From positions 620,001 to 684,000 of the forward strand of contig NZ_MIEU01000002.1 in the NCBI RefSeq assembly GCF_001968825.1: a stretch of 64,000 nucleotides of DNA. Reading direction: 5' to 3'. Numbering within the stretch: position 1 is the stretch's first letter; the number at the start of each line of letters is the position of its first letter. The notes beneath the pieces are model-generated. The model did not search any database. It saw nothing but the letters and a program-made list of their open reading frames with translations, and was not told where the DNA came from. Below are positions 19,946 through 42,564 of this stretch, one piece after another. Both the position numbers and the translations under genes were made by a program. Source of the DNA: Tersicoccus sp. Bi-70 (GTDB lineage Bacteria; Actinomycetota; Actinomycetes; Actinomycetales; Micrococcaceae).

Positions 19946-21318
19946 CCGACTCCGTCAACGACGCCAGTGCCCTGCCCGCCGGCTCCGGCCGCTATCTCGT
20001 CCGCGGCGCCCGCCTGCTCGGCCGCGACCGCACCGACCTGCTGATCGAGGACGGGGTCATCACCGGGACCGGCACCCCGTCGGCGGCCGGTGCCACCGTC
20101 ATCGACGCCGACGGGCTGGTCGCGCTGCCCGGCTTCGTGGACCTGCACACCCACCTGCGCGAGCCCGGCCGCGAGGACGCCGAGACCGTCCTCACCGGCT
20201 CCCGCGCCGCGGCGGCCGGCGGTTTCACCGCGGTGCACGCCATGGCCAACTCGGACCCGGTGGCGGACACCGCCGGCGTCGTCGAGCAGGTGTTCACGCT
20301 CGGCCGGGACGCCGGCTGGACCGAGGTGCGGCCCGTCGGCGCGGTCACCGTGGGCCTGGGCGGTGCCCGGCTCGCGGAGCTCGGCGCGATGGCCGACTCC
20401 CGTGCCCGGGTCCGGGTGTTCTCCGACGACGGCATGTGCGTGCACGACCCCGTGCTGATGCGCCGGGCCCTCGAGTACGTCAAGGCCTTCGGCGGCGTCG
20501 TCGCCCAGCACGCCCAGGAACCGCGGCTCACGGAGGGCGCCCAGATGAACGAGGGCGCCGTCTCCGCGACCCTCGGGCTGACCGGCTGGCCCGCCGTCGC
20601 GGAGGAGGCGATCATCGCCCGCGACGTGCTGCTCACCGAGCACGTCGGCTCCCGGCTGCACGTGTGTCACGTCTCCACCGCCGGCAGCGTCGAGCTGATC
20701 CGCTGGGCCAAGCAGCGGGGCATCGCCGTCACCGCCGAGGTCACCCCGCACCACCTCATGCTCACCGACGAGGCCGTCACCGGGTACGACCCCGTCTTCA
20801 AGGTCAACCCGCCGCTGCGCACCGCCGAGGACGTGGCCGCGCTGCGGGCGGCGGTCGCCGACGGCACGATCGACGTCATCGGCACCGACCACGCGCCGCA
20901 CCCCGCCCAGGCGAAGGAGTGCGAGTGGGCGGAGGCCGCGATGGGCATGACCGGGCTGGAGACCGCGCTCTCCGTCGTCCAGGAGGCCCTGGTCGAGACC
21001 GGCATGCTGGACTGGGCCGGCGTCGCCCGGATCATGTCCCAGACCCCGGCCCGGATCGGGCAGCTGCCGTGGCAGGGCGGCAGCCTCGTGGTCGGGGAGC
21101 GGGCGAACGTGACCCTCGTCGATCCGGCCGCGCGCCGCGTGATCGATCCGGCCGCGATGGCCACCAAGGGCCGGAACAATCCCTTCGCCGGTCGCGAGCT
21201 GCCCGGCCGGGTGATCGCCACGTTCCTCGCCGGCCACCCGACCGTGCTCGACGGCGAGCTGAACAGCTCGCTGACCAGCCCGTCGACCAGCCCGGCGAGC
21301 GCCGGAGGCACCCGATGA
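19942..21318 (+). CDS. pyrC: Dihydroorotase
   Basis: A 458-residue class I dihydroorotase of the amidohydrolase superfamily that cyclises carbamoyl aspartate. Metal ligands lie in [23 protein letters not shown] and IGTDHAPHP; other signatures are [11 protein letters not shown] and KVNPPLR. GTG 19942 overlaps the pyrB stop and gives a normal N terminus; a longer open frame upstream is a shadow of pyrB. Its stop overlaps the next gene (ATGA). Confidence 0.96.
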
Positions 21319-21947
21319 CCCGCGCCATCGCCGTCATCGCGCTGATCGCGTTGGTGCTCGTCGTCTTCGCCCTGATGCGCCGCGGCTGGCGCGCCCGGCA
21401 GGCCCGGCAGGGCGACCTACCCGCGCCGATGACGACCGCCGATCTGGGCGCGTCGCTGGCCGGGGCGGCGGGCATGTACGTGGTCACGACCAGCGCCGGT
21501 GACTGGCTCGACCGGGTCGCCGTGCACGGCCTCGGCGTGCGCACCGCCGGGGAACTGACCGTCCACCCCGGGGGCGTGCTGATCGCCCGCCGGGGTGCCG
21601 ACGACGTCGTCATCCCCGCCGCCGACCTCGAGTCCGTGACCACCACCTCCGGCATGGCGGGCAAGTTCGTCGAGCGTGACGGACTGCTCGTGCTCACCTG
21701 GCGGCTCGGCCCGCGCCGCGTCGACACCGGCTTCCGCGTCCGTCACGCGGGGGAGCAGACGGCCCTGATCGACGCGCTGCTCACCCTGCCCGGCGTGCGA
21801 CGACGCGAGGCGCCCGGGGGCGTGCCCGACGCCGAGCCGACTGCCGGCGAAGCCGGCTCCAGCGGCACCGCCGGCACCACCCCGGACGCCGACCACCCCA
21901 CCGATCCCACCGACCCCACCAACGGAACCAGGGGACCCTCCGCATGA
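21315..21947 (+). CDS. Membrane-anchored PH-like domain protein of the pyr operon
   Basis: A 210-residue protein: one N-terminal membrane helix (residues 3-21, [18 protein letters not shown]), a basic stretch, then a beta-rich domain of about 120 residues ([14 protein letters not shown] to [21 protein letters not shown]) and a disordered tail with repeated PTD. A gene of this kind lies between pyrC and carA in mycobacteria (Rv1382) and other actinobacteria. Its function is unknown; conserved placement and 4-nt overlaps on both sides imply co-translation with UMP enzymes. Confidence 0.85.
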
Positions 21948-23190
21948 CCACACCCGCCATCCTGATCCTCGAGGACGGGCGCACCTTCCGGGGCCGCTCG
22001 TACGGCGCCGTCGGGCAGGCGCTCGGCGAGGCCGTCTTCGCCACCGGCATGACCGGCTACCAGGAGACCATCACCGACCCGTCCTATGCCGGCCAGCTCG
22101 TGGTGCAGACCGCACCGCACATCGGCAACACCGGCGTCAACGGGCAGGACGCCGAGTCCGTGCGCATCCAGGTCGCCGGCTACATCGTCCGCGACCCGGC
22201 CCGCCGCCCGTCCAACTGGCGCAGCGAGTCCTCCCTCGACGACGAGCTGGTCCGGCAGGGCATCGTCGGCATCGCCGGCATCGACACCCGCGCCCTGACC
22301 CGCCACCTGCGCGACGCCGGCTCGATGCGCGGCGGTATTTTCTCCGGCCCGGCCGCCGAGCGGCCCGTCGCCGAGCTCGCCGCCGCCGTGGCCGAGAGCC
22401 CGCGGATGACCGGCGCCCGCCTGGCCGAGAGCGTCTCGGTCAGCGAGGCCGAGGTCATCGAGCCCGCCGACCACGGCTGGGACGGCCCGGTCCGGTTCAC
22501 CCTCGCCGCCGTCGACCTCGGCATCAAGGCCATGACCCCGCACCGGTTCGCCGAGCGCGGCGTGCGGGTGCACGTACTCCCCGCCACCACCACGTGGGAG
22601 CAGCTGCAGGAGTTGGCCCCGGACGGGGTGTTCTACTCCAACGGCCCCGGCGATCCCGCCACCGCGGACGACCAGGTGGCCCTGCTGCGTCGCGTGCTGG
22701 ACGCCCGGATCCCGTTCTTCGGCATCTGCTTCGGCAACCAGCTGCTCGGCCGGGCGCTCGGCTTCGGCACCTACAAGCTCCGGTTCGGGCACCGCGGCAT
22801 CAACCAGCCGGTGATGGACCGCAGCACCGGCAAGGTCGAGATCACCTCCCAGAACCACGGCTTCGCCGTCGACGCCCCGCTCGACGGGCCCGTGCCCGCT
22901 CCCGCGGGCGACTACGGCCGGGTCGAGGTCAGCCACGTGTGCCTCAACGACGACGTCGTCGAGGGCCTGCGCTGCCTGGACATCCCCGCGTTCTCGGTCC
23001 AGTACCACCCCGAGGCCGCCGCCGGCCCGCACGACGCCGCGTACCTGTTCGACCGGTTCGTGGCGTTGATGGAGGCGTCGAAGGAAGGCCAGGAGGTCAC
23101 CGGCGCCGACACGGCCGACGACCCCGCCCGCACCGGCGACTCGCAACCGGATCTGCCCCACGCCCACGCCACCACGGAGGACTCCCACTG

Positions 23191-23191
<1 letters not shown>
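21944..23191 (+). CDS. carA: Carbamoyl-phosphate synthase small (glutaminase) subunit
   Basis: A 415-residue subunit that hydrolyses glutamine and passes ammonia to CarB. The N-terminal CPSase domain starts [17 protein letters not shown]; the class I glutamine amidotransferase domain has the nucleophile C262 in [12 protein letters not shown] and the His/Glu pair in [16 protein letters not shown] 21944 overlaps the preceding gene (ATGA). About 35 residues after the fold form an Asp/His-rich tail. The stop overlaps carB by 1 nt. Confidence 0.97.
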
Positions 23192-26575
<3,384 letters not shown>

Positions 26576-26583
<8 letters not shown>

Positions 26584-27529
26584 CCCGGTCCCCGGGCCGG
26601 CGTCGCCGCTCATCCCGGAGCCGGTCCCCGAGCCGCTGCCCGGCACGGGTCCGGTTGCGGCCGCCGTGCTGGGCTTCGGTCCGCGACTGCAGCGGGCCAT
26701 GGCACTGCGCGGTCCGCTGTGCGTGGGCATCGACCCCCACCCGGGGTTGCTGAGCGCGTGGGACCTGGACGACGACGCCGCGGGCCTGGAGCGGTTCTCC
26801 CGCACCGTGCTCGAGGCCGCCGCCGGCCGGTGCGCCGCGATCAAGCCCCAGGTGGCCCTGTTCGAGCGGCACGGGTCCGCCGGCCTGGCCGTGCTCGAAC
26901 GGCTGCTCGCGGCCGCCGCGGACGCCGACGTGCTCACCATCGCCGACGCCAAGCGCGGGGACATCGGTTCGACCATGGCCGCGTACGCACAGGCCTGGCT
27001 GGCCGACGGCTCCCCGCTGGCCGCCGACGCGGTGACGCTCTCCCCGTACCTGGGCTTCGAGTCGATGCGCCCGGCCCTGGACCTGGCCGCGGTGACCGGC
27101 CGCGGCGTGTTCGTGCTCGCGCTGACCTCGAACCCGGAGGGCGCCGGCGTCCAGCACGCGGGCGACGACGGGGACGGCGGGTCGGTGGCCGCGCGGATCT
27201 GCGTGGCCGCGGCGGACGAGAACGCCGCCCGCCGGTCCGCCGACGGGTGGGGTCCCGTGGGGCTCGTCGTCGGCGCGACCGTCGGCGCGGAGGCCATCGC
27301 GCGCCTGGGCATCGACCTGACCGCCGTCGCCGGTCCCTTCCTCGTCCCCGGCTACGGGGCGCAGGGTGCGGGCGTCGCCGAGGTCGCCGCCACGTTCGGG
27401 TCCGCCGTCCCGGCGGCCCTGGTGTCCTCCAGCCGTCAGATCCTCGCCGCGGGACCGGACGTCACGGCCGTCCGAGCGGCGGTCGATCGGACCGCCGAGG
27501 ACCTGCGGACGCTGGCCGGACGGCCCTGA
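26576..27529 (+). CDS. pyrF: Orotidine 5'-phosphate decarboxylase (type 2)
   Basis: A 317-residue enzyme making UMP, the last step of the pathway. Substrate and catalytic residues are in [19 protein letters not shown] and [11 protein letters not shown] (D124, K126, D129), and the phosphate loop is [12 protein letters not shown] 26576 follows AGGAG at 26564-26568 and lies 8 nt inside carB. The first ~25 residues are Pro-rich ([10 protein letters not shown]), an unusual lead before the barrel. All de novo UMP genes except pyrD are now accounted for in this operon. Confidence 0.95.
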
Positions 27530-27774
27530 CCGTCGCGCCCGACCGACTCCCGCCGTTCCCGCGCTGACCTGCGGGCACGGTGCTGAGCCTGCTCCTGTTC
27601 TCGGCTGCGAGCGGGGGTTACACTACGTGCACGACGCGACATGGGGGGCCTTCCATCCGTGGACCGGTGCACTCGCGGAACCGGGACACGGAGCTAGTTT
27701 CGACCATTCACCAGGCGCGCCGGTCGGCCCGCGAGGCCGGTCCCGGCGGCCGGGACCGTGTACGGGAGAGAATC
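27530..27774 (+). promoter_or_regulatory. mihF promoter region
   Basis: Two -10 candidates are present: TACACT at 27619-27624 (start near 27631) and TAGTTT at 27695-27700 (start near 27707). A weak hairpin CCCGC/GCGGG at 27558-27575 may end pyrF transcription. No further gene is seen. Confidence 0.4.
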
Positions 27775-28092
27775 GTGGCTCTGAAACCGTTGACCACCGA
27801 CGAGCGGGCGCGTGCCCGGGACAAGGCGACCGCGGCGAGGACCGTGCGGGCCGACGCCAAAACACGACTGAAGACGGGCAACTCCTCGGTCGCCTCCGTG
27901 ATCGACTCCGGGTCCGCCGACGAGGCGATCGGCCGGATGAAGGTCAGCGAGATGCTGGAGTCCCTGCCCGGCGTCGGCAAGAAACGGTCGGCGGCTATCA
28001 TGGCCGAGGTCGGCATCTCGCCGTCCCGTCGCATCCGGGGCCTCGGCGTCCACCAGCGCAAGGCCCTGATCGACTACCTCACCACTCACTAG
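27775..28092 (+). CDS. mihF: Actinobacterial integration host factor (mIHF)
   Basis: A 105-residue nucleoid-associated protein, essential in mycobacteria and also needed for phage L5 integration. The conserved DNA-binding core is MKVSEMLESLPGVGKKRSAAIMAEVGI then RRIRGLGVHQRKAL, an H2TH-type helix-two-turn-helix. GTG 27775 follows GGGAGAG and gives the usual length (VALKPLTTDERA). The longer open frame upstream is not supported. It is 87 nt before gmk, the standard actinobacterial neighbour. Confidence 0.95.
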   Translation: MALKPLTTDERARARDKATAARTVRADAKTRLKTGNSSVASVIDSGSADEAIGRMKVSEMLESLPGVGKKRSAAIMAEVGISPSRRIRGLGVHQRKALIDYLTTH

Positions 28093-28179
28093 GGATCGCC
28101 GGCCGTCGGTGCGGGCGTCCCACGACGCACAGGGCTCCGCCTGCTCCGGTGGCGGCGCCCGGACAAGGGCCCCAGCATC

Positions 28180-28842
28180 GTGAGCGACGACTTCCCGACG
28201 GCGACGAGCACGGAACCGGCGACGCCGGGGACCGACCGGACCGCGGTCCGGGACGAGTACCGCGCGGGGACCGGCGAGGACGGCACGCCACGCCTGACCG
28301 TCCTCGCCGGTCCGACCGCCGTCGGGAAGGGCACCGTCTCCACGTACATCCGGGACCACTTCCCGCAGGTCTGGCTCTCCGTCTCGGCCACCACCCGGGC
28401 ACCGCGGCCCGGCGAGCAGGACGGCGTGCACTACTTCTTCCTCACGCCCGAACGGTTCGACGAGCTGGTCGCCACCGGCCAGATGCTCGAGTGGGCGGTG
28501 GTACACGGCCGGCACCGGTACGGCACGCCACGCCCGGCGGTCGAGGCGGCCATGGCCGAGGGGCGCAGCGTGCTGCTGGAGATCGACCTGCAGGGCGCCC
28601 GGCAGGTGCGCGACGCCATGCCGGAGGCCTCGTTCGTCTTCCTGGCGCCGCCGACGTGGGACGAGATGGTGCGCCGACTGATCGGACGCGGCACGGAGAC
28701 GCCCGAGGAACAGCAGCACCGGCTCGAGACCGCTAGAATGGAGCTCGCTGCAGAACCCGAGTTCGACCACACGGTGGTCAACGACCGGGTCGAGCGGGCC
28801 GCCGCGGAGCTCGTCAGCCTGATGGGGCTGCCCGCCCGCTGA
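28180..28842 (+). CDS. gmk: Guanylate kinase
   Basis: A 220-residue enzyme that phosphorylates GMP to GDP. P-loop [11 protein letters not shown] (near residues 42-52), GMP-binding [21 protein letters not shown] and the lid [17 protein letters not shown] are present. The first ~37 residues are an acidic extension before the fold. GTG 28180 has only a weak AAGGG upstream, so the exact start within this extension is uncertain. An in-frame AGA codon lies within a TAGAAT box near the 3' end. Confidence 0.95.
28734..28739 (+). promoter_or_regulatory. Intragenic -10 box in gmk, possible rpoZ promoter
   Basis: TAGAAT, close to the -10 consensus, lies inside gmk about 200 nt before rpoZ and forces an AGA arginine codon that is rare here. 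No -35 match is evident. Confidence 0.35.
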
Positions 28843-28939
28843 CCGTCACCTGCCGACCCAGCCCACCGGTTCTGCCCCGCGATCCTCGGCCACCGGCCCA
28901 TCCGGCGGACCGTGACCCCGACACCTGGAGACGAATTCC

Positions 28940-29263
28940 GTGACCACTCACGCCGAAGGCATCATTTCCCCGTCGATCGACTCGCTGCTGGAGACGACCG
29001 ACTCCAAGTACGCGCTCGTCATCTACGGTGCGAAGCGTGCCCGCCAGATCAACGCCTACTACGCGCAGCTGCACGAGGGCCTCTTCGAGTACGTCGGCCC
29101 GCTGGTCGAGACCCGGCTGAACGAGAAGCCGCTGTCCATCGCGCTGCGTGAGATCGACGGGGGCATGCTCGAGCGCAAGGCCGTCGACCCGGAGGCCGTG
29201 CAGGACGCCGCCTCCGCCCTGGACGACGCGGACGTCTTCGGCGACACCCACCCCACCGCGTGA
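28940..29263 (+). CDS. rpoZ: DNA-directed RNA polymerase omega subunit
   Basis: A 107-residue subunit that helps fold and hold beta'. Conserved features are the start ([12 protein letters not shown]), [20 protein letters not shown] and [15 protein letters not shown] 28940 follows CTGGAGA. It is 13 nt before coaBC, in the usual actinobacterial gmk-rpoZ-coaBC-metK order. Confidence 0.96.
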
Positions 29264-29276
29264 CCCGGGGCGGCGC

Positions 29277-30527
29277 GTGAAGGTCGTCCTCGGCGTCGGC
29301 GGCGGGGTCGCCGCCTACAAGAGCGCCCTGCTGCTGCGACTCTTCACCGAGGAGGGGCACGACGTCACCGTCCTGCCCACCACCGCGTCGCTCAACTTCG
29401 TCGGCGCCGCCACCTGGGAGGCTCTCTCCGGCCGTCCCGCGCCGCGGGACGTCTTCGAGGACGTCGAGCAGGTCAATCACGTCCGCCTCGGGCACGAGGC
29501 GGACCTCGTCGTCGTCGCCCCCGCCACCGCGGACCTGCTCGCCCGGGCCGCCCACGGCCTGGCCGACGACCTGCTGACCAACACGCTGCTGGTCGCCACG
29601 TGTCCGGTGCTGTTCGTGCCCGCGATGCACACCCAGATGTGGCAGCACCCCGCCACGGTGGCCAACGTCGCCACGCTGCGGTCGCGGGGGGCGCACGTCC
29701 TCGATCCGGCCGTGGGCCGGCTGACCGGCTGCGACAGCGGTCCCGGCCGGCTGCCGGACCCGCCCGACATCCACGCCGCCGCTATCGCCCTCGTGGCGCC
29801 CGATTCCACCGAGCGCCCCGTGCCCGCCCGCGATGCTGTGGCCGACGGCGTCCTCTCCGGCCGGCGCGTCCTCATCACCGCCGGGGGCACCCGGGAACCC
29901 CTGGACCCGGTCCGCTACCTCGGCAACCGCTCCAGCGGCAAGCAGGGCGTCGCCCTCGCGTGCGCCGCCCGGGACGCCGGTGCCCACGTCACCCTGATCG
30001 GTGCGAACCTGCAGGTCGAGGCGCCCGACGGCGTCGACCTCGTCACGGTCGAGACCACCGATCAGCTGCACGACGCGGTGCTGGCCGCCACGCCGGACGC
30101 CGACCTCGTCGTGATGGCCGCCGCCGTCGCCGACTTCCGTCCGCGCAGCCTCGCGACCCACAAGATCAAGAAGAGCGACGACGGGACCGACCCCGTCATC
30201 GAACTGACCCGGACGCCGGACATCCTCGCCGAGATCTCCGCGAACCGAGCACGGCCGGGCCAGGTGATCGTCGGATTCGCCGCCGAGACCGGGGACGACA
30301 CGCACACCGCGCTCGAGTTCGCCCGAGCCAAACTGGCCCGCAAGGGGTGCGACGCGCTGGTGCTCAACGAGGTCACCGGTGGCGCCGTGTTCGGGCAGGA
30401 CAGCACCGCCGTCCACGTCGTCACCCCGGACGGGAACACGGCCGAGGCGACCGGTACGAAGGATGATGTCGCCGTGTTCCTCGTGGGCACTTTCGCAAGG
30501 ATCCCAGCCAGTACAGTGGGCAGGTGA
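29277..30527 (+). CDS. coaBC: Phosphopantothenoylcysteine synthetase/decarboxylase
   Basis: A 416-residue bifunctional coenzyme A enzyme. The N-terminal FMN-dependent CoaC half (1 to ~180) has [34 protein letters not shown] and PAMHTQMW; the CoaB half (~190-416) has [23 protein letters not shown] and [10 protein letters not shown]. The PAMH form of the usual PAMN motif appears common in actinobacterial homologues. GTG 29277 is the only start giving a normal Rossmann N terminus. The stop overlaps metK (GTGA). Confidence 0.95.
30512..30517 (+). promoter_or_regulatory. -10 box for metK inside coaBC, probable leaderless promoter
   Basis: TACAGT ends 6 nt before GTG 30524. It lies in the last codons of coaBC, so metK could be both coupled to coaBC and made from its own leaderless transcript. 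Confidence 0.5.
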
Positions 30528-31723
30528 CCTCCTCCGATCTGCGCCTGTTCACCTCCGAGTCCGTGACCAACGGGCACCCGGACAAGATCTGCGACCAGAT
30601 CAGCGACTCGATCCTCGACGGCCTGCTCGCCGCCGATCCGGACTCCCGCGTCGCCGTCGAGACCATGGTCACCACGGGCCTCGTGCACGTCGCCGGCGAG
30701 GTGACCACGTCGGGATACGTGGAGATCCCGCGCATCGTGCGCGACACCATCCTGCGCATCGGGTACGACTCCTCCGACAAGGGGTTCGACGGCGCCAACT
30801 GCGGTGTCTCCGTCTCCATCGGCGAGCAGTCCCCGGACATCTCCGGCGGCGTGACCACGTCGCTCGAGGTGCGCGAGGGCCGGGACGTCGACGACCTGGA
30901 CCGGCAGGGCGCCGGCGACCAGGGGCTGATGTTCGGCTATGCCAGCGAGGAGACGCCCGTCCTGATGCCGATGCCGATCTGGCTCGCGCACCGGCTCTCC
31001 GAGCGGCTCACGAACGCGCGCACCAGCGGCGATCTGCCGCAGCTGCGTCCGGACGGCAAGACCCAGGTGACCATCGGATACGACGGGCTGACCCCGGTCT
31101 CCGTCGACACCGTCGTCGTCTCCACCCAGCACGAGGGCGACTACTCCCAGGCGCAGCTGAAGGCGGACATCACCGCCGCGGTCATCGAGCCGGTGCTCGC
31201 CTCGTCCGGGCTGGACGTCTCGGCCACGAAGCACATCATCAACCCCGGCGGCCCGTTCGTGATCGGCGGCCCGGTGGGCGACGCCGGTCTGACCGGCCGC
31301 AAGATCATCGTCGACACCTACGGCGGGATGGCCCGCCACGGCGGCGGCGCGTTCTCCGGCAAGGACCCGTCGAAGGTCGACCGCTCCGCCGCCTACGCCA
31401 TGCGCTGGGTCGCGAAGAACGTCGTGGCCGCCGGACTCGCGGCGCGGGCCGAGATCCAGGTCGCCTACGCGATCGGGCAGGCGCACCCCGTCGGTCTGTA
31501 CGTCGAGACGTTCGGCACCGAGAAGACGGACCCGGACCGGATCACGCGCGCCATCAAGGACGTGTTCGACCTGCGCCCGCTCGCGATCATCCGCGACCTC
31601 GACCTCAAGCGGCCGATCTACGCCCGTACCGCCGCGCACGGCCACTTCGGCCGCGAGGAGCCGGGCTTCACGTGGGAGCTGACCGACCGCGCCGACGCGC
31701 TGCGGAGCGCCGCCGGCCTCTGA
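30524..31723 (+). CDS. metK: S-adenosylmethionine synthetase
   Basis: A 399-residue enzyme forming SAM from methionine and ATP. Hallmarks are [20 protein letters not shown] (ATP and Mg2+), [12 protein letters not shown] (the loop), and [20 protein letters not shown] (the phosphate-binding P-loop). GTG 30524 overlaps the coaBC stop by 4 nt. No SAM riboswitch is seen upstream. Confidence 0.98.
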
Positions 31724-32004
31724 TCGGCGTGTGGCGGTCGGGTCCGGCGCACCGGACTCGCCAGCGGTTCTGTCGGTGGTCGATGCTGGACTGATCCTGA
31801 TCGGTCCACGCGTCGTTCGACGCCGGGCGTGCGGTGCCGGGCGTGCGGTGTCGGTTCCGGGAGCCGATCGGTCCCGTCGACGTGCATCGGCTGACGACGA
31901 CTGGCTGACGACGACTGGCTGACGACGACACACTGACGCGGCGGTCCGACGACGACCGGTCGCGGACCGCACGGATCGAGGCGGCGCACAGGAAGGAGCA
32001 TTCG
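31724..32004 (+). repeat. metK-priA spacer with two sets of 14-bp tandem repeats
   Basis: Two adjacent copies of GCCGGGCGTGCGGT lie at 31822-31835 and 31836-31849; three copies of GGCTGACGACGACT (last base changed in the third) lie at 31889-31902, 31903-31916 and 31917-31930. Both families have a 14-bp unit but unrelated sequence. The spacer has no convincing gene; a short open frame at 31731-31922 is only repeat-encoded. AAGGAGC near 31993 serves priA. Confidence 0.8.
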
Positions 32005-34233
32005 ATGGCGGCATTCACGCCGGAGGAGGACTCCGGCCAGGCGGCGCTGCTCGACCTTCCTCCCGCCCGCGGGACGGCGGCGCCGGAACCGGTCGCCGAG
32101 CCGGTCGACATCGCCCGCGTCGTGGTGGACAGCCCGCTGCCGCACCTGGACCGACCCTTCGACTACCGCATCCCCGCCGCGATGAGCGAGACGGTCACCG
32201 TCGGTTGCCGCGTCACCGTGCGCTTCTCGGGCCGGGTCCGCTCCGGGTTCGTGGTGGACCGGGTCCGCGAGCCCGACCCGAGCGGACGGCTCGCCGAGCT
32301 GCAGCGGGTCGACTCGTCCGTCCCCGTCCTCACCACCGAGGTGCTCGAGCTCGCCCGGGACGTCGCCGCCCGCTACGCCGGGGTCACCTGGGACGTGCTG
32401 CGCGCCGCCGTCCCGTCCCGCGTCGCCGCCGTCGAGAAGGCCCTGGACGTGCCCGACGAGCTCCTGCGCTGGTCCAGCGGCGACGAGAGCGCCCTCGGCC
32501 GCGTCGGCGACAGCGGCGCGAGCGCGACGACGGACCCGGACGCGAGCAGCAGACATGCCGGTGACGCGGCAGAGTCCGCCGCGCAGCCCGATACGGCGCC
32601 CGGCGTCGCATCGCAGAGGCCCGACGGCGGCGCACCGGACCCGGCCTTCGCGCCCTATCCGCACGGTGCGGCCTTCCTGGACCATGTGCGGGCCGGCGGT
32701 TCGCCGCGAGCCGTCCTGGACGCCGCCCCCGGTCACGGGCCCCACGCCTGGCCGGAGCTGCTGGCCGCCGCGATCGTCGCCTGTCACGCGTCGGGCCGCA
32801 GCGCGGTGGCCGTCGTCCCCGACCTGCGTGACCTTGCCCGACTGGAGACCGCCCTGGCCGACCGGCTGCCCGCCGGTGCGGTCGTCCGGCTCAGCGCCGA
32901 CGACGGCCCGACGCCCCGGTACCGCAACTACCTGGCCCTGCGCTTCGGGACCGCCCGCGTGGCGATCGGCACCCGGTCCGCCGCCTGGGCGCCCGTGCGC
33001 GATCTCGGCCTGCTGTGCCTGTGGGACGACGGCGACGACTTGCACGTCGAACCGCGGGCGCCGTACCAGCACAGCCGCGAGGTGCTGCTGCTGCGGGCCG
33101 ACCGGGCCGGTGCCGGCGTCCTGCTGGCCGGATCCGGGCGGAGCACCGAGGCCGAGCGTCTGGTCGCCACCGGGTGGGCGCAGCCGCTGAGCCCGGACCG
33201 GGCCACCCGCCGGCGGACCGCCCCGCGCGTCGTCAGCACCGCCGACAGTGTCCAGTCCGCGCGTGACCCCCTCGCCCGGGTTGCCCGGCTCCCGCAGCTC
33301 GCCCACGAGACGGCACGCGCCGCACTGACCCGGGGCCCCGTGCTCGTGCAGGTGGCGCGGACCGGCTACGCTCCCGCGCTGTCCTGTCAGCGGTGCCGCC
33401 AGCCGGCGCGCTGCCCCCACTGCTCGGGCCCGCTCGCGGTGGCCGGTCGGCACGCGCCGCCGGTGTGCCGGTGGTGTCATCGCAGCGCCCCGGCCTACGC
33501 GTGCCCCGTGTGCGGCGCCACCGCCCTGCGGATGATCGCCGTGGGAGCGCTGCGCACCGCCGACGAACTGGGGCGTGCGTTCCCGCAGGTCCCGGTCATC
33601 TCCTCGTCCGGCGACCACATCCGCACGGAAGTGCCGGACGAGCCCGCCCTCGTCGTCGCGACCTCGGGCGCGGAACCGGTCGCGGCCGGCGGGTACGCGG
33701 CCGCCCTACTGCTCGACGGTGACGCGATGCTCGAACGCGAGTCGCTGCGGGCCGCGGAGGAGACCGTGCGGCGCTGGTTCGGCGCGGCCGGACTGGTCCG
33801 GGGCGCCGCCGACGGAGGTGTCGTGGTGGTCACGGCGGGGGAGTCCGCCGCCGTCGCCGCGCTGGTGCGGTGGGATCCGGCCGGGTTCGCCGAGCGGGAG
33901 TACGCGCTGCGGCGGGAGCTGTCACTGCCCCCGGCCGTCCGCGTCGCCGCCGTCACCGGCACCCCGGACTCGGTGCGGGACCTGGTCGAACGAGCCGACC
34001 TGCCGGAGGACTGCCGGGTGATCGGCCCGGTGCCGTTCGTCGGTTCGACTCCGGGACCCGCGCCGGCGGTCGGAACCGAGCCGGGGGAGCGCGAGGAGCG
34101 AGCGCTCGTCTTCTTCTCCTACCGGCACGGGGCGGTCGTCGCCGCCGCACTCAAGGCCTCCCGGGCCCGGCAGTGGGCCGGCAAGCGGGACGCCCCCGCG
34201 CACCTGCGTCTGGACGGCCTCGACCTGGTCTGA
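32005..34233 (+). CDS. priA: Primosomal protein N' (PriA), helicase motifs degenerate
   Basis: A 742-residue replication-restart protein. The 3'-DNA-binding domain (about 30-135) and a zinc-binding cluster with eight Cys between C461 and C503 are present. The ATPase motifs are not: where Walker A (GxGKT) should be there is PGHGPH (about residues 242-247), and the DEAH-type box is replaced by WDDGDD (340-345). It therefore cannot hydrolyse ATP in the usual way, a known trait of actinobacterial PriA. Residues ~155-215 are a low-complexity linker. Confidence 0.93.
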   Translation: MAAFTPEEDSGQAALLDLPPARGTAAPEPVAEPVDIARVVVDSPLPHLDRPFDYRIPAAMSETVTVGCRVTVRFSGRVRSGFVVDRVREPDPSGRLAELQRVDSSVPVLTTEVLELARDVAARYAGVTWDVLRAAVPSRVAAVEKALDVPDELLRWSSGDESALGRVGDSGASATTDPDASSRHAGDAAESAAQPDTAPGVASQRPDGGAPDPAFAPYPHGAAFLDHVRAGGSPRAVLDAAPGHGPHAWPELLAAAIVACHASGRSAVAVVPDLRDLARLETALADRLPAGAVVRLSADDGPTPRYRNYLALRFGTARVAIGTRSAAWAPVRDLGLLCLWDDGDDLHVEPRAPYQHSREVLLLRADRAGAGVLLAGSGRSTEAERLVATGWAQPLSPDRATRRRTAPRVVSTADSVQSARDPLARVARLPQLAHETARAALTRGPVLVQVARTGYAPALSCQRCRQPARCPHCSGPLAVAGRHAPPVCRWCHRSAPAYACPVCGATALRMIAVGALRTADELGRAFPQVPVISSSGDHIRTEVPDEPALVVATSGAEPVAAGGYAAALLLDGDAMLERESLRAAEETVRRWFGAAGLVRGAADGGVVVVTAGESAAVAALVRWDPAGFAEREYALRRELSLPPAVRVAAVTGTPDSVRDLVERADLPEDCRVIGPVPFVGSTPGPAPAVGTEPGEREERALVFFSYRHGAVVAAALKASRARQWAGKRDAPAHLRLDGLDLV

Positions 34234-34281
34234 TGGCGCTCGGTCGGCGAGCTCGGCTCCTGGCGTCCGTCGGCCGTGGTT

Positions 34282-34294
34282 CCGGGAATCCCGG
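34282..34294. terminator. Short hairpin between convergent priA and glycosyltransferase genes
   Basis: CCGGG-AAT-CCCGG forms a 5-bp stem just before the stop of the reverse-strand gene. It is weak; I see no better terminator in the 66-nt gap. Confidence 0.3.
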
Positions 34295-34299
34295 TGGGT

Positions 34300-35433
34300 T
34301 CAGCCCCGGCGACCGAGCCCGAGTCGCGTCAGGACGGACCGGCGTTGCCGATGCCCGGCCCGCTGCCGCACCACGTCCTCGGCCAGGGCCAGCAGGGCGC
34401 GGGCGGAGGCGTCCCAGTCGAAGTCCGCCGCACGTTCCACACCGCGCGACGACGCCGCCGCGAACACCTGCGGGTCCTCGAGCTCACGGACGGCGGCCGC
34501 GACCGCGGCGGGGTCGGTCGGCGGCACGTACCGCACGGCGTCGGCGCCGACCTCCCGGAAGATCGGGATGTCGCTGGCGATCACCGGGGTGCCCTCGGCC
34601 ATCGCCTCGACCAGCGGCAGCCCGTAGCCCTCCGCCTGCGAGAGGGTGACCAGCGCCGTGCACCGGTGCAGCTGGTCCGTGTACTCCTCGTCGCTGACCC
34701 CGTCGTGGAAGACGACGTCCGACCCCGCCGGCACCGCCGCGGTCAGCTCGCGCTTCCGGACGGGAGGCACCCGGCTGAGCAGGTGCAGGGTGTACCCGGG
34801 CAGGTGCTCCATGGCCGCGATCAGCGTCTCGACGTTCTTGTACGGCAGGAACGCGCCCATGTAGACGAGCGAGCGCTCCGGTGCCGTGCCCGGGTCACGC
34901 GGACCCGACGACGCCGCCGGCTGCGGGGCGTTGCCGATCACGGTGACCGGGCGCCGGGTGAGTCGCAGGCGGGCGATGGCGTCCGCGGTGGTCGCGCTGA
35001 CCGTGGCGACGGCATCGGCCCGGTTCAGCAGCACCCGCTGCGGCCAGTAGGCGCGGTGGTAGAGCCGCCACAGCAGCCGCACCGGTGCGGGCAGGAAGCC
35101 CGGTGGGGTGGGGTGCTCGTAGTAGATGGTGTCGTGCAGCGTGAGGATCAGCCCGTACCGGCGCCCGGCGCTGCCCATCGTCTGCATCGGGCAGAACACG
35201 ACGTCGGGCTTCAGCCGGTTGACCGTTCCGGCGATCAGCAGCTCGGCGGGGGAGAGGGGACTGCTCACCTTCACCCACGGCACGTCCGGCAGCAGCTCGA
35301 GCTGCCGCTCGTCGTGGATGAGCATGACGACGTCGGTGTGCCGGGACAGGGCAGCGATCAGGCTCGCCCCGTAGCGGCTGATGCCGTCGTGCCGCCCGAT
35401 CCGGGTGAACCGCGCGTCGACCAGCAGCCTCAT
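34300..35433 (-). CDS. Glycosyltransferase family 4 (GT-B) protein
   Basis: A 377-residue glycosyltransferase. The N-terminal half begins LLVDARFTRIGRHDGISRYGASLI with the glycine-containing acceptor loop; the C-terminal half has LVYMGAFLPYKNVETLI and the E268-x7-E276 motif (AEGYGLPLVEAMAEG) that binds the nucleotide sugar. No membrane helix. It is last in a three-gene reverse operon, overlapping the hydrolase by 4 nt. Sugar and acceptor are unknown; cell-surface glycan or small-molecule glycosylation are both possible. Confidence 0.9.
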   Translation of the reverse strand: MRLLVDARFTRIGRHDGISRYGASLIAALSRHTDVVMLIHDERQLELLPDVPWVKVSSPLSPAELLIAGTVNRLKPDVVFCPMQTMGSAGRRYGLILTLHDTIYYEHPTPPGFLPAPVRLLWRLYHRAYWPQRVLLNRADAVATVSATTADAIARLRLTRRPVTVIGNAPQPAASSGPRDPGTAPERSLVYMGAFLPYKNVETLIAAMEHLPGYTLHLLSRVPPVRKRELTAAVPAGSDVVFHDGVSDEEYTDQLHRCTALVTLSQAEGYGLPLVEAMAEGTPVIASDIPIFREVGADAVRYVPPTDPAAVAAAVRELEDPQVFAAASSRGVERAADFDWDASARALLALAEDVVRQRAGHRQRRSVLTRLGLGRRG

Positions 35434-36413
35434 GATGCCGCCCCCGTCGTCCTGCCGGACGATGTCCCGGCCTCCGCGCTGCCGCCCGGACGCGGCGGCG
35501 CGTCCGCCGCGGGATGCCGGTCCAGGAAATCGGCGATCAGCCCCGCCACCAGCTCCGGCGTCTCGTAGTGGGTCAGATGCCCCACGCCGGCGATCACCGA
35601 CAGCTCGGAACCGGGCAGCAGGGCGTGCAGCCGATGCTGCGTGTCCAGCGGCGCGATGTCGTCCGCGTCGCCCGCGATCAGCTGGACGGGCAGGCGCAGC
35701 CGGTCGGCCACCTCCGTGACGGTGCCGGTCACGGACGCGGTGAACGCCTCCTGCACGACCCGACGGTCGGCGAACGCGCTGAAGTAGCGCCGGTGCTGGT
35801 CATGGATGAACCGGCGCAGCGCCGGGTCCTTCGTCGTCGCCATCACCTCGCTCATCACCCGCACGATGATCCGGTTGCGCAGCAGCGCCTGGCCGACGGG
35901 CTCGGGCAGGCGGGCCCCGGCGGCGTAGTACAGCTGGGCCAGCCGGGACATCAGCGCCTGCGGTCCCTCCAGGGCCGGGGCGGCGATCGGGTTGATCAGG
36001 GTCAGGGTGCTGAAGGCGTCGGGTCCGGCGGCGACGGCGTGCGCCGCGACGATCGAGCCGAACGAGTGGCCGACCAGGGCCGGGGCTTGCCCGTCGCCGA
36101 CCGCCTCGGCGACGAGACGGACGAAGCGGGCGTAGGAGGCGACGTCGTGCCGGCCGGCCAGCGCGTCCGCCGCCCCGAAACCGGGCAGGTCCGGCACGAC
36201 GATCCGCAGGCCGGGGGATGCCTCGGCCAGGGCCGCCGCGATGCCGGCGAGACCGTGGTGATCGCCGCGAAAGCCGTGCACCAGCAGCACCGTCCGCGAC
36301 GGATCACGGCGACCGCTGCGGTGCGGGTTTCCCGGCTCCGCCGGGTGCTCGTACCACCACACCGGGGCACGCCGACCGTCCGGCAGAATCACGGTCTCCC
36401 GCCGGCCGCTCAT
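35430..36413 (-). CDS. Alpha/beta-fold hydrolase
   Basis: A 327-residue alpha/beta hydrolase. The oxyanion region is LLVHGFRGDHHG, the nucleophile is S117 in LVGHSFGS, the acid is in GDADDIAP (D249-D252) and the histidine is H279 in GVGHLTHYE. The cap region (about 145-225) is helical. No signal peptide. ATG 36413 overlaps the aldo/keto reductase stop by 4 nt and its own stop overlaps the glycosyltransferase start, so all three are co-translated. The C-terminal tail is Gly/Pro-rich. Substrate unknown. Confidence 0.9.
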   Translation of the reverse strand: MSGRRETVILPDGRRAPVWWYEHPAEPGNPHRSGRRDPSRTVLLVHGFRGDHHGLAGIAAALAEASPGLRIVVPDLPGFGAADALAGRHDVASYARFVRLVAEAVGDGQAPALVGHSFGSIVAAHAVAAGPDAFSTLTLINPIAAPALEGPQALMSRLAQLYYAAGARLPEPVGQALLRNRIIVRVMSEVMATTKDPALRRFIHDQHRRYFSAFADRRVVQEAFTASVTGTVTEVADRLRLPVQLIAGDADDIAPLDTQHRLHALLPGSELSVIAGVGHLTHYETPELVAGLIADFLDRHPAADAPPRPGGSAEAGTSSGRTTGAAS

Positions 36414-37270
36414 CGGACCGACTCCGGATCCGGGCCGCCGCGTTCGCTGCGATCCAGGGCGGCGATGCGCTGCATCGTCTCGTCGTCGAGCCGGAAGGAG
36501 AAGAGATCGACGTTCTGCTCGATCCGCGCCCGGCTGCTGGCCTTCGGGATGACGACGCTGCCGCGCTGCAGGTGCCAGCGCAGGATCAGCTGGGCGATGG
36601 AGACGCCGAGCGGCCCCGCGATCGAGGCGAGCTCCGCGTCGTGCAGGCAGGCGCCCCGGCCGAGCGGGCTCCAGGCGACGGTCGCGATGCGATGCGCGGC
36701 GTGGAAGGCGAGAAGTTCGTCCTGCTGCAGATAGGGGTGCAGTTCCACCTGGTTCACGGCGGGGACGACGTCGGTCTCGGCGAGCAGCCGCTCCAGCTGG
36801 GCAACGGTGAAGTTGCTCACGCCGATGCTGCGCACCGCACCCTCGTGGTAGAGGCTCTCCAGCTGCCGCCAGGCGTGCACGTACCGGTCGGCGGAGGGCA
36901 CGGGCCAGTGGATGAGGTACTGGTCGACGGTCGTCAGCCCCAGCGCGTCCCGCGACTGGACCAAGGCGGCCCGGGCGTCGTCGTGCCGGTCGTTCCACAG
37001 CTTCGTCGTGACGAACACGTCCTCCCGGTCGAGCCGGAAGTCGCCCACCTCGGACGTCGCCTCCCGCACCGCGGCGCCGACACCGGCCTCGTTCCGGTAG
37101 AGCGCCGCCGTGTCGACGTGCCGGTACCCCGCCTCGAACGCGGAGCCGACCAGCTCGGCGGTGTGCTCCGCGGGCACCTGGAAGGTGCCGAAGCCGACGG
37201 TGGGCATCCTGACGCCGTTGTTCAGGGTGATCTCACGGGTCACGGGGACCGGAGGGAGGGCTGAACTCAT
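36410..37270 (-). CDS. Aldo/keto reductase
   Basis: A 286-residue NADPH-dependent reductase of the AKR superfamily (prostaglandin F synthase / 2,5-diketogluconate reductase-like). The catalytic tetrad is complete: D53, Y58 (DTAALYRNE), K90 (TTKLW) and H121 (IHWPVP). The NADP-binding end IPKASSRARIEQN is present. ATG 37270 is chosen over a longer open frame because it gives the standard N terminus and has a TAGAGT box 7 nt before it. First gene of the reverse operon. Confidence 0.93.
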   Translation of the reverse strand: MSSALPPVPVTREITLNNGVRMPTVGFGTFQVPAEHTAELVGSAFEAGYRHVDTAALYRNEAGVGAAVREATSEVGDFRLDREDVFVTTKLWNDRHDDARAALVQSRDALGLTTVDQYLIHWPVPSADRYVHAWRQLESLYHEGAVRSIGVSNFTVAQLERLLAETDVVPAVNQVELHPYLQQDELLAFHAAHRIATVAWSPLGRGACLHDAELASIAGPLGVSIAQLILRWHLQRGSVVIPKASSRARIEQNVDLFSFRLDDETMQRIAALDRSERGGPDPESVR

Positions 37271-37277
37271 GGCCACG

Positions 37278-37283
37278 ACTCTA
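37278..37283 (-). promoter_or_regulatory. -10 box for the reverse operon, probable leaderless promoter
   Basis: TAGAGT on the reverse strand ends 7 nt before ATG 37270, so the transcript would begin at or within a base of the start codon. Confidence 0.45.
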
Positions 37284-37335
37284 TCCGTGCACGTGGACGG
37301 CGTATTCGTGGGACGCTGCGACACGGCGGCTGCGG

Positions 37336-37379
37336 TTGCGTCCTCGTCGTCTTGACTCCAAGATGTGGTGGGGACCACA
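37336..37379 (+). promoter_or_regulatory. glpF promoter with overlapping palindromic operator
   Basis: TTGCGT (37336-37341) and CAAGAT (37359-37364) are spaced by 17 nt and predict a start near 37371. TGTGGT-GGGG-ACCACA at 37364-37379 is a perfect interrupted palindrome centred on that start, a classic repressor position. The regulator is not in this window. Confidence 0.45.
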
Positions 37380-37427
37380 CCGGTTTCTCATCCCACCGGC
37401 ACCACGGGGATGTCCGTTCCACCCCGC

Positions 37428-37455
37428 GCACGCCGGACGACGTCGTCCGGCGTGC
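37428..37455 (+). promoter_or_regulatory. Perfect 28-bp palindrome (leader hairpin) before glpF
   Basis: Two 14-nt arms meet with no gap (GCACGCCGGACGAC then its reverse complement). In RNA this folds to a stem of about 12 bp, ending 12 nt before the AAGGAG at 37467-37472. It may be an attenuator, a stability element or a second operator; no U-tract follows. Confidence 0.6.
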
Positions 37456-37478
37456 CCGCTTCCACGAAGGAGTCAACG

Positions 37479-38225
37479 GTGTCACCACAAGCATTCGTGG
37501 CCGAGCTGATCGGCACCACGCTGCTGCTGCTGCTCGGCTGCGGCGTCGTCGCGAACGTCGCCCTCGCCCGCACCAAGGGCAACGGTGGCGGCTTCCTGAT
37601 GGTCAACTTCGGCTGGGGTCTGGCGGTGTTCGCCGGTGTGTACGCGGCGGCCGCCTCCGGGGCGCACCTGAACTTCGCGGTCACCGTCGGGCTCTGGGTC
37701 AACCCGGACACCGCGACCTTCGCCCCCGGCATCGACAAGACGTTCGGCAACGCCCTGCTCTACCTGCTCGCGCAGATGATCGGCTCGATCCTCGGCGCCG
37801 TCCTCACCTGGGCCGCCTACAAGCAGCACTTCGACGAGGAGCCGGACCCGGCCAACAAGCTCGGCGTGTTCGCCACCGGGCCGGCCATCCGCAACACCGC
37901 GTGGAACCTGATCACCGAGATCATCGGCACCTTCGTGCTCGTGCTCGTCATCGTCAGCTTCGGCAACAACCCGAGCGGCCTCGGCCCGCTGGCCGTCGCC
38001 CTGCTCGTCGTCGGCATCGGCGCGTCCCTCGGTGGCCCCACCGGTTACGCGATCAACCCGAACCGTGACCTCGGCCCCCGCATCGCCCACGCCTTCCTGC
38101 CGATCAAGGGCAAGGGCTCCAGCGACTGGGGCTACGCGTGGATCCCGGTCGCCGGCCCGATCATCGGCGGCATCCTCGGCGGTCTGATCGCCCCGCTCGT
38201 CCACGTCGCCGTCGCCGCGGCCTGA
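37479..38225 (+). CDS. glpF: Glycerol facilitator (MIP family) with variant NPA motifs
   Basis: A 248-residue, six-helix aquaglyceroporin that lets glycerol diffuse inward. The two pore half-helices are [12 protein letters not shown] and [12 protein letters not shown]: the first NPA is N65-F66-A67 and the second is N193-P194-N195, with the glycerol-channel Asp/Arg (R196, D197) kept. Both asparagines at the pore centre remain. GTG 37479 follows AAGGAG. Immediately upstream of glpK, 40 nt apart, which fixes the physiological role. Confidence 0.92.
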
Positions 38226-38265
38226 GCCGCAACCCACCGTTCACCACCCACGACAGGAGTCACTC

Positions 38266-39780
38266 ATGGCCGACTACGTTCTGGCGATCGACCAGGGCAC
38301 CACGTCCTCCCGCGCCATCGTGTTCGACAAGTCCGGTAGCATCGTCTCCACCGGCCAGCTCGAGCACGAGCAGATCTTCCCCCGTGCCGGATGGGTCGAG
38401 CACGACCCGGAGGAGATCTGGACCAACGTCCGCGAGGTCATCGGCATCGCGCTCAGCCGCGCGAACCTGACCCGGCACGACATCGCCGCCGTCGGCATCA
38501 CCAACCAGCGGGAGACCGCGGTGGTGTGGGACAAGAACACGGGCAAGCCCATCTACAACGCGATCGTCTGGCAGGACACCCGCACGCAGAAGATCGTCGA
38601 CGAGCTCGCCGCCGACGGGGGCGTCGAGCGCTTCAAGGACAAGGTCGGCCTCCCGCTGGCCACCTACTTCTCCGGCACCAAGGTCAAGTGGATCCTCGAC
38701 AACGTCGACGGGGCCCGCGAGAAGGCCGAGGCCGGGGACCTGCTGTTCGGCAACACCGACAGCTGGGTGGTGTGGAACCTGACCGGCGGCACCGACGGCG
38801 GCGTGCACATCACCGACGTCACCAACGCCTCCCGCACCATGTTCATGGACCTCGCGTCCCTGTCCTGGGACCAGGAGATCCTCGACGCGTTCGGGGTGCC
38901 CGCCTCGATGCTGCCGGAGATCAAGTCCTCCTCCGAGGAGTACGGCACGGTGCACAGCTCGCAGCTGCTGCGCGAGACGCCGGTCGCCGGCATCCTCGGC
39001 GACCAGCAGGCGGCGACCTTCGGGCAGGCGGCGTTCGAGAAGGGCGGCGCCAAGAACACCTACGGCACCGGCAACTTCCTGATCGTCAACACCGGCGAGG
39101 AGATCGTCAAGTCGAAGAACGGGCTGCTGACCACGGTCTGCTACAAGCTCGGCGACGCCAAGCCGGTCTACGCGCTCGAGGGTTCCATCGCCGTCACCGG
39201 ATCCCTGATCCAGTGGCTGCGCGACAACCTGGGCCTGATCAAGACGGCGCCCGAGGTGGAGGAGCTCGCCCGCACGGTCGAGGACAACGGCGGCGTGTAC
39301 GTGGTGCCGGCGTTCTCGGGCCTGTTCGCCCCGTACTGGCGCGGTGACGCGCGCGGCGCCATCGTCGGCCTGACCCGGTACGTGAACAAGGGCCACATCG
39401 CCCGTGCGGCGCTGGAGGCCACGGCCTTCCAGACCCGCGAGGTGCTCGACGCCGCCAACGCGGACGCCGGGGTCGACATGGAGGACCTGCGGGTCGACGG
39501 CGGCATGGTCGCCAACGACGCCCTGATGCAGTTCCAGGCCGACATCCTCGGCATCCCGGTGGTCCGGCCGAAGGTCGTCGAGACGACGGCGCTCGGTGCC
39601 GCCTACGCGGCGGGCCTGGCGGTCGGGTTCTGGCAGAGCACGGACGACGTGACCGCCAACTGGGCCGAGGACAAGCGCTGGGAGCCGCAGATGGACGCCT
39701 CCGAGCGCGACCGTCAGATGCGGCTGTGGAAGAAGGCCGTCACGAAGACCTTCGACTGGGTCGACGACGACGTCCAGTAG
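38266..39780 (+). CDS. glpK: Glycerol kinase
   Basis: A 504-residue FGGY-family kinase that traps glycerol as glycerol-3-phosphate. Signatures are [15 protein letters not shown] (phosphate binding), [36 protein letters not shown] and [22 protein letters not shown] 38266 follows ACAGGAGT. It is not followed by glpD; a long terminator comes next. Confidence 0.97.
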
Positions 39781-39792
39781 CAGCGACGTGAT

Positions 39793-39833
39793 GCGGCTCG
39801 GCACCGGGGCTCGACGCCCCGGTGCCGGGCCGC
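39793..39833 (+). terminator. glpK terminator hairpin
   Basis: A stem of about 18 bp (12-bp perfect core at 39799-39810 and 39816-39827, loop TCGAC, extended outward with one G-U pair) lies 12 nt after the glpK stop. Confidence 0.8.
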
Positions 39834-39838
39834 TGCGC

Positions 39839-39844
39839 TACCAT
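39839..39844 (+). promoter_or_regulatory. -10 box of the leuS leader transcript
   Basis: TACCAT lies just past the glpK terminator and ends 7 nt before ATG 39852, so the transcript would start at or one base before the leader peptide's start codon. Confidence 0.5.
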
Positions 39845-39851
39845 GGACGAC

Positions 39852-39872
39852 ATGCCGTTCCGACTTCTCTAG
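39852..39872 (+). CDS. Leucine leader peptide of leuS (MPFRLL)
   Basis: A six-codon open frame, ATG CCG TTC CGA CTT CTC TAG, ends in two consecutive leucine codons; CTT is rare in this genome. It begins at the predicted transcript start, so it could be translated without a ribosome binding site, and is followed by mutually exclusive RNA pairings and a U-tract terminator. These are the parts of a classical attenuator that senses charged tRNA-Leu. Not verified by conservation. Confidence 0.6.
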
Positions 39873-39874
39873 AG

Positions 39875-39951
39875 GCTGTGCCGACGGGGCCTGCATGACT
39901 GCAGCGCCGTCACGTCAGGCACAGCGGCCCCTTGCTCAGCGAGGGGCTTTT
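39875..39951 (+). terminator. leuS transcription attenuator
   Basis: The terminator is GCCCCTTGC (39927-39935), loop TCA, GCGAGGGGC (39939-39947), then TTTT (39948-39951). Segment A GCTGTGCC (39875-39882) complements C GGCACAGC (39918-39925). Segment B GGGGCC (39886-39891) complements GGCCCC (39926-39931), the 5' arm of the terminator. A ribosome stalled at the leucine codons would cover A and free B to break the terminator. Confidence 0.65.
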
Positions 39952-40026
39952 GTGTGTCCGGGCCCGGAACGGGGCCCGCACAGAGTCGTCGAACCACCCG
40001 TCGATCCCCGGAGGACTGAGACCAGC

Positions 40027-42564
<2,538 letters not shown>

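Follow-up and report, generated by a model that had tools for sequence, protein, structure and literature searches.

A probable leucine-responsive transcription attenuator upstream of leuS in Tersicoccus sp. Bi-70 and its actinobacterial relatives

How might a short RNA leader control the gene for leucyl-tRNA synthetase? The question is raised by a 64,000-nt stretch of the Tersicoccus sp. Bi-70 genome, here called the window, in which a leader element lies directly upstream of a gene that NCBIfam models name as leuS (Table 1). The original prediction for this site was a leucine attenuator, and its coordinates all proved correct: TACCAT followed after 7 nt by ATG, the reading frame MPFRLL closed by TAG, the A/C and B complements, and the terminal TTTT. 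The leader RNA (39852-40026) has a folding energy of -86.9 kcal/mol (z = -3.29), which was equalled by 0 of 200 shuffled sequences. Neither a T-box nor any other Rfam family reached its gathering score anywhere in the 64-kb window, and the same result was obtained for six further loci. Scanning the window for terminators returned, besides the leader terminator and a sub-match of it, eight other terminator-like sites; these lack four consecutive T in their tails, so that it was fair to call the leader terminator the one clear terminator with a U-tract in the window. The numbers of such sites were near the shuffle mean in three of four stretches and exceeded it in 20001-40000, where 6 sites compare with a mean of 2.2 (sd 1.4).

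Table 1. Features of the leuS leader and its neighbouring genes (window coordinates)
Feature	Coordinates	Strand	Basis and remarks
glpK, gene upstream of the leader (context only)	38266..39780	+	TIGR01311 glycerol kinase, over cut-off
TACCAT, putative -10 box of the leader promoter	39839..39844	+	sequence; 7 nt before ATG
Leader ORF MPFRLL (ATG CCG TTC CGA CTT CTC TAG)	39852..39872	+	sequence, congeners; stop codon TAG at 39870-39872
CTT, conserved rare Leu control codon	39864..39866	+	60 leaders, congeners, codon counts
P1 5' arm (A), GCTGTGCC	39875..39882	+	complementary to GGCACAGC; fold; P1 helix covaries over 52 leaders
GGGGCC (B), proposed antiterminator arm, not supported as functional	39886..39891	+	complementary to GGCCCC 39926-39931
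P1 3' arm (C), GGCACAGC	39918..39925	+	flush with terminator stem, 0-nt linker in fold
Intrinsic terminator T	39926..39951	+	stem 39926-39948, 10 pairs, 3-nt loop; U-tract TTTT 39948-39951
GGAGG, likely leuS ribosome binding site	40010..40014	+	from sequence
leuS, leucine--tRNA ligase	40027..42564	+	TIGR00396 leuS_bact, E 1.6e-279, over cut-off; GTG start taken

Comparison with relatives indicated that this arrangement is more than a chance observation. Among the best 80 of 590 LeuS relatives, an element of the same plan precedes leuS at 59 of the 80 named loci, a proportion that describes this best-matching set and is not a phylum rate, and both congeners carry it too. A terminator was called by script at 58 of these 59 loci, the exception being L032. 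The 21 loci without the element belong to Kocuria (seven), Rothia (three), Nesterenkonia (two) and Yaniella (two), with seven single cases from Micrococcus, Auritidibacter, Citricoccus (L047, with only 87 nt of upstream sequence), Glutamicibacter (L053), Streptomonospora, Nocardiopsis and a member of the Propionibacteriaceae; the element is therefore dispensable. Together with the window, the 59 loci yielded a set of 60 leaders, 52 of which form alignment A1. Omitted from it were L010 and L017, which are near copies of L009 and L016, as well as L032 (no terminator called) and L038, L042, L043, L044 and L050 (Glutamicibacter type). A covariance model built from these 52 leaders, the window being one training row, finds L032 at E 2.2e-13 and the five Glutamicibacter-type leaders at 3.4e-5 to 0.0084, and, up to E 1, gave no match at any of the 21 loci scored as without the element. 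The upstream regions of the Glutamicibacter type (L038, L042, L043, L044, L050 and L053) retain a -10 box, a start codon and a terminator; before an early stop they contain a single CTA (L038, L042-L044), CTA CTC (L050) or no Leu codon (L053), and are perhaps a decaying form.

The leaders share a typical plan, which consists of a -10 box, 6 nt, an eight-codon ORF ending in Leu(CUU)-X-stop, a hairpin (P1) that rises from the stop codon and, after 0-2 nt, a U-tract terminator (T). Leader starts were hand-picked among candidates 4-10 nt past a TANNNT motif, and in this selection 6 nt separate TANNNT from the start codon in 56 of 60 leaders, 7 nt in three (the window among them) and 9 nt in one. 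Such a spacing fits a leaderless start and agrees with the geometry proposed originally; judging from sequence, the leader ORF probably starts at or within one base of the transcript 5' end. The ORF has eight codons in 48 of the 60 leaders and ends with TAG in 50, and the congener leader peptides are MPFRLL (L088) and MPIRLP (L089).

A Leu-codon leader peptide before leuS had been postulated, and codon identity bears this out: the final Leu codon is CTT in 51 of the 60 leaders, CTA in six, CTC in two (the window and L050) and CTG in one. The window has CTT and then CTC, both of which had been put forward as control codons; CTT is common to all three species of the genus, but CTC is not, since L089 reads CTT CCC. 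In five window ORFs (leuS and glpK, confirmed by protein models, and three others taken as genes by eye), only 1 of 199 Leu codons is CTT and none is CTA, and the leaders therefore use rare codons. Nine long tRNA genes were inspected, including four for tRNA-Leu, one of these with the anticodon GAG. The final Leu codon also stands at a set distance from the foot of P1, as CTN-N5-GCCGC occurs in 50 of the 60 leaders. The footprint of a ribosome extends about 13 nt from the first A-site base, so that a ribosome on this codon would cover just GCCGC. The window is among the ten exceptions: the first base of CTT lies 11 nt from the start of P1 in its genus and 8 nt in the common form. With the same footprint, a ribosome on CTT would therefore mask only about two P1 pairs, and one on the CTC of the window about five. 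This offset weakens the simple geometric picture for the window genus.

P1 is the stem predicted between A and C, and it covaries over the 52 aligned leaders. In its common form, the first pair includes the G of the stop codon (GCCGC with GCGGC). For P1 and T together, 92.7% of alignment cells are paired and ten pairs show two-sided changes; cells with such changes number 62, against a shuffle mean of 16.1, and the covariation score is 0.217, compared with at most 0.080 for slid versions of the structure, which preserve relatedness whereas the shuffles do not. The terminator was likewise corroborated, with 98.1% of T helix cells paired over the 52 leaders and two-sided changes in three pairs. 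Both congeners keep P1 (GCUGUGCC with GGCACAGC) and T, and their P1 loop differs. By eye, a shifted pairing of the 5' side of P1 with the terminator arm also looks possible in the window (39871-39879 with 39924-39932, AGAGGCUGU with GCGGCCCCU, one mismatch).

The two hairpins are tightly spaced. Among 59 leaders examined, 58 have an upstream hairpin; no nucleotide separates it from T in 29 of them, one does in 24 and two do in five, although the span of P1 varies from 15 to 62 nt. The stretch before T was also shuffled in 58 of the 60 leaders (L032 and L050 being left out): a hairpin of at least six pairs that ends no more than 1 nt before T is present in 52 of these 58 leaders compared with 34% of 2320 shuffles, and 51 of 58 compared with 20% when the foot must also lie at the stop codon, a contrast weaker than the raw linker counts suggest. 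Shuffles were used in place of the ordinary terminators of the same loci, a control that failed, only three being found, one of them at linker 0. Comparison across the leaders shows the ORF, its CUU codon, P1, T and their tight spacing to be features of the element.

The covariance model extended the element well beyond the genus. In the window's own genome it gave one strong match, at the window leader (E 1.8e-6, a training row), and the congeners, outside the training set, matched at E 2.0e-8 and 1.4e-7, so that the element is present in three of three genomes of the genus, the own genome included. Searches at E 0.01, with stricter filters for sets of over 40 genomes, returned matches in at least 161 of 295 genomes and at least 20 of 32 genera of the family, at least 222 of 394 genomes and 88 of 138 genera of the class, and at least 38 of 396 genomes and 22 of 237 genera of the phylum; the downstream gene was checked for only part of these matches. 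At 30 loci from the phylum search, tblastn placed leuS next in 22, and L114, which runs off its contig, was taken as a 23rd leuS case for its resemblance to L143, which by eye precedes a LeuS-like frame. The seven others lie before leuA (L111, L112, L115) or ilvB (L113, L116, L117, L118). NCBIfam models named six of the seven and L118 was read by eye; the leuA frames score over curated cut-offs, and three ilvB frames are partial and below them. Among 20 further regions, L145 (leuA) and L155 (ilvB) were confirmed above cut-off, and the majority of the others looked by eye like ilvB, leuA or leuS regions. The same layout, identified partly by eye, is found before leuA and ilvB in other actinobacterial classes.

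Two further observations concern these other genes. L111, L112, L115 and L145, which lie before leuA in other classes of the phylum, have Leu-run leaders with a hairpin abutting the terminator, and the leader of L112 is MTSTLTLLLLS. The own genome contains, as a weak model match (E 1.25), an ilvB-type leader MQKQILVVLDRRGA with a terminator (L087, G000:C2:172328-172454), downstream of which an ilvB-like frame, VFGLPGGAILPTYDPL, was recognised by eye. The leader is also distributed across divergent synthetases. A tree of 30 LeuS parts, from which L078 was omitted as no frame was found by script, has supported groups of nine (98/94) and 20 (100/98) members, and the leader precedes members of both deep groups. 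For example, the order-mates L102, L104 and L105 have the leader, and their LeuS is 41-48% identical to that of the window. The gene may have been replaced under an old leader, or both may have moved together; the tree fits either history.

A leuS attenuator in itself is not new, even though the original prediction did not recall this design for leuS. Leucine attenuators were predicted for leuS in Streptomyces coelicolor and S. avermitilis (Seliverstov et al, 2005; PMC1262725), and in S. lividans TK24 a leaderless leader peptide, leuL2 (MRAVRLLLSEPR), with a hairpin and U-run before leuS, is reported from RNA-seq (PMC8079986). As in the window, the Streptomyces predictions combine a Leu-codon leader ORF with a terminator before leuS, and classical attenuation is proposed; that paper also reports an antiterminator hairpin, whereas no conserved antiterminator was found among the leuS leaders aligned here, in which P1 and T abut instead. 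L091, a covariance-model match in the same class, encodes MRAVRLLLSEPR, identical to the published leuL2 peptide, and the window element is therefore of the same kind; the leader of L091 has 12 codons with the stop inside the 5' side of P1, and that of the window six codons with the stop just before P1. The Corynebacterium ilvB leaders, known from the ilvB-II motif (PMC10272879) and the three-hairpin ilvBNC attenuator (PMC11857589), resemble the window in having branched-chain codons in the leader ORF, a P1 and a terminator hairpin, and differ in the gene controlled and in a longer ORF. Their antiterminators use the P1 loop or 5' sequence, for which no conserved counterpart was found in the leuS leaders, and the antiterminator and terminator bases of C. 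glutamicum ilvBNC adjoin and overlap (PMC11857589). Finally, the LEU element before actinobacterial leuA, described in PMC1262725 as a pseudoknot with base pairing between the run of Leu codons and the leuA Shine-Dalgarno box, shares with the window leader, on that description, its runs of Leu codons and its phylum. Taken with these systems, the element very probably belongs to a known class of transcription switches that sense leucine. The literature searched, which covered journals partially and mostly without subscription titles, contained no report of its spread in Micrococcaceae, of the rare-codon rule or of the P1-T abutment; no paper on leuS attenuation in Arthrobacter or on leucyl-tRNA synthetase attenuation across Actinobacteria was found among sources that included few subscription journals, and related searches of the same sources gave PMC1262725 only or no title on leuS leaders.

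We consider it likely that this element, starting leaderless, controls leuS by ribosome-mediated transcription attenuation. Codon identity, fixed geometry, covariation and the identity of the L091 peptide with leuL2 count for this reading; against it count the lack of a conserved antiterminator, the off-rule geometry of the window and the 21 of 80 loci without the element, as well as the finding, cited in PMC1262725, that replacing candidate control codons of the ilvB leader of S. coelicolor was without effect. The conserved layout leads us to infer where transcription starts, in which direction regulation acts and how P1 is tied to termination, as follows. Transcription would begin at or beside the ATG at 39852, and the first ribosome would need no Shine-Dalgarno site to translate MPFRLL. 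If tRNA-Leu is charged, this ribosome would finish and leave, P1 would fold, T would then form directly next to it, and most transcripts would stop. When tRNA-Leu is uncharged, chiefly the GAG-anticodon isoacceptor reading CUU and CUC, a ribosome held on the Leu codons would keep the foot of P1 open, and more polymerases would reach leuS.

How an open P1 foot might hinder T can be envisaged in several ways. In the version originally proposed, B would act as the antiterminator by pairing with 39926-39931. Six G-C pairs are indeed possible, and forcing them costs only 0.9 kcal/mol relative to the best fold when the A site holds the stop codon; the cost is 4.8 kcal/mol with CTT and 2.0 kcal/mol with CTC in the A site, however, and GGGGCC is, by eye, absent from the P1 loops of both congeners (L088 and L089), while the P1 loops of several compact relatives appear too short for a B-like arm. 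We therefore rejected this pairing, which now seems very improbable, and of the alignment proposed along with it the Leu codon and the A:C covariation held up but the B:terminator pairing did not. A smaller antiterminator would arise if the 3' arm of P1 (GCGG), freed once the ribosome masks its partner, paired with the 5' arm of T (CCCC) and delayed T. Of its five pairs, three are present in 50, 51 and 51 of the 52 rows, and the cost of freeing the T arm rises by more than 0.2 kcal/mol in 48 of 58 leaders and falls in five. A C. glutamicum ilvBNC mutant moreover implies an effective antiterminator stabilisation of only about -1.5 kcal/mol (PMC11857589). Set against this, the remaining two pairs are seen in 40 of 51 and 15 of 52 rows, P1 and T by themselves already dictate the letters of the core pairs, and covariation does not exceed the controls (0.085 versus 0.120 in one slid version). 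The effect also amounts to only about 2 kcal/mol: with the P1 foot masked in 58 of the 60 leaders (all but L032 and L050), release of the 5' arm of T has a median cost of 2.04 rather than 0.72 kcal/mol, compared with -13.5 kcal/mol for T, and in a first pass of folding the T arm was less free by more than 0.1 in 36 leaders and freer in none. The modest size of this cost makes a small antiterminator possible but weak, and we entertain it tentatively.

The attenuator might also work with no antiterminator, if P1 stacked end to end on T and helped to close its base, where the last T base pairs would pull the RNA out of the hybrid; a ribosome on CUU would mask the P1 foot, stacking would be lost and a weak terminator would fail. 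The short linker despite the variable P1 span and its excess over shuffles argue for this version, as do 16 selected leuA- and ilvB-type leaders of other genomes, which abut in folds as well (linker 0 in 12, 1 in two and 2 in two) and whose P1 3' arms mostly look, by eye, insufficiently G-rich to pair with T. Yet GC-rich shuffles often abut too (in 48% the linker does not exceed 1 nt), which makes the excess a moderate one; a small antiterminator would equally predict tight spacing in the leuS leaders, the ordinary-terminator control gave no usable contrast, and our literature search found no measurement of such an effect on termination. We regard stacking as unlikely. Its generalisation, that leucine and branched-chain leaders across Actinobacteria form one antiterminator-free layout, with a leaderless mini-ORF and a rare CUU one ribosome length before a terminator-abutting hairpin, in which a stalled ribosome would remove stacking support from a weak terminator, is if anything more doubtful. 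The hairpins could, lastly, be nothing but a terminator of glpK, with the ORF incidental and no leucine control, a reading favoured by the position of the glpK end (39780), which leaves 145 nt to the terminator stem. The covariation, constant geometry and codon identity seen across relatives argue against it, some loci have, by eye, something upstream that is not the end of glpK, and the same plan precedes ilvB and leuA elsewhere; we regard it as highly improbable.

These switch models are separable by small spacer and codon changes, and the large set of aligned leaders bears on a question posed in PMC1262725, namely how switching occurs in leaders that apparently lack some components of a classical attenuator. 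For the family of the window, Micrococcaceae judging by its nearest named relatives, an attenuator of this kind would extend the control reported for Streptomyces leuS to at least 20 of 32 sampled genera, and to further classes beyond it.
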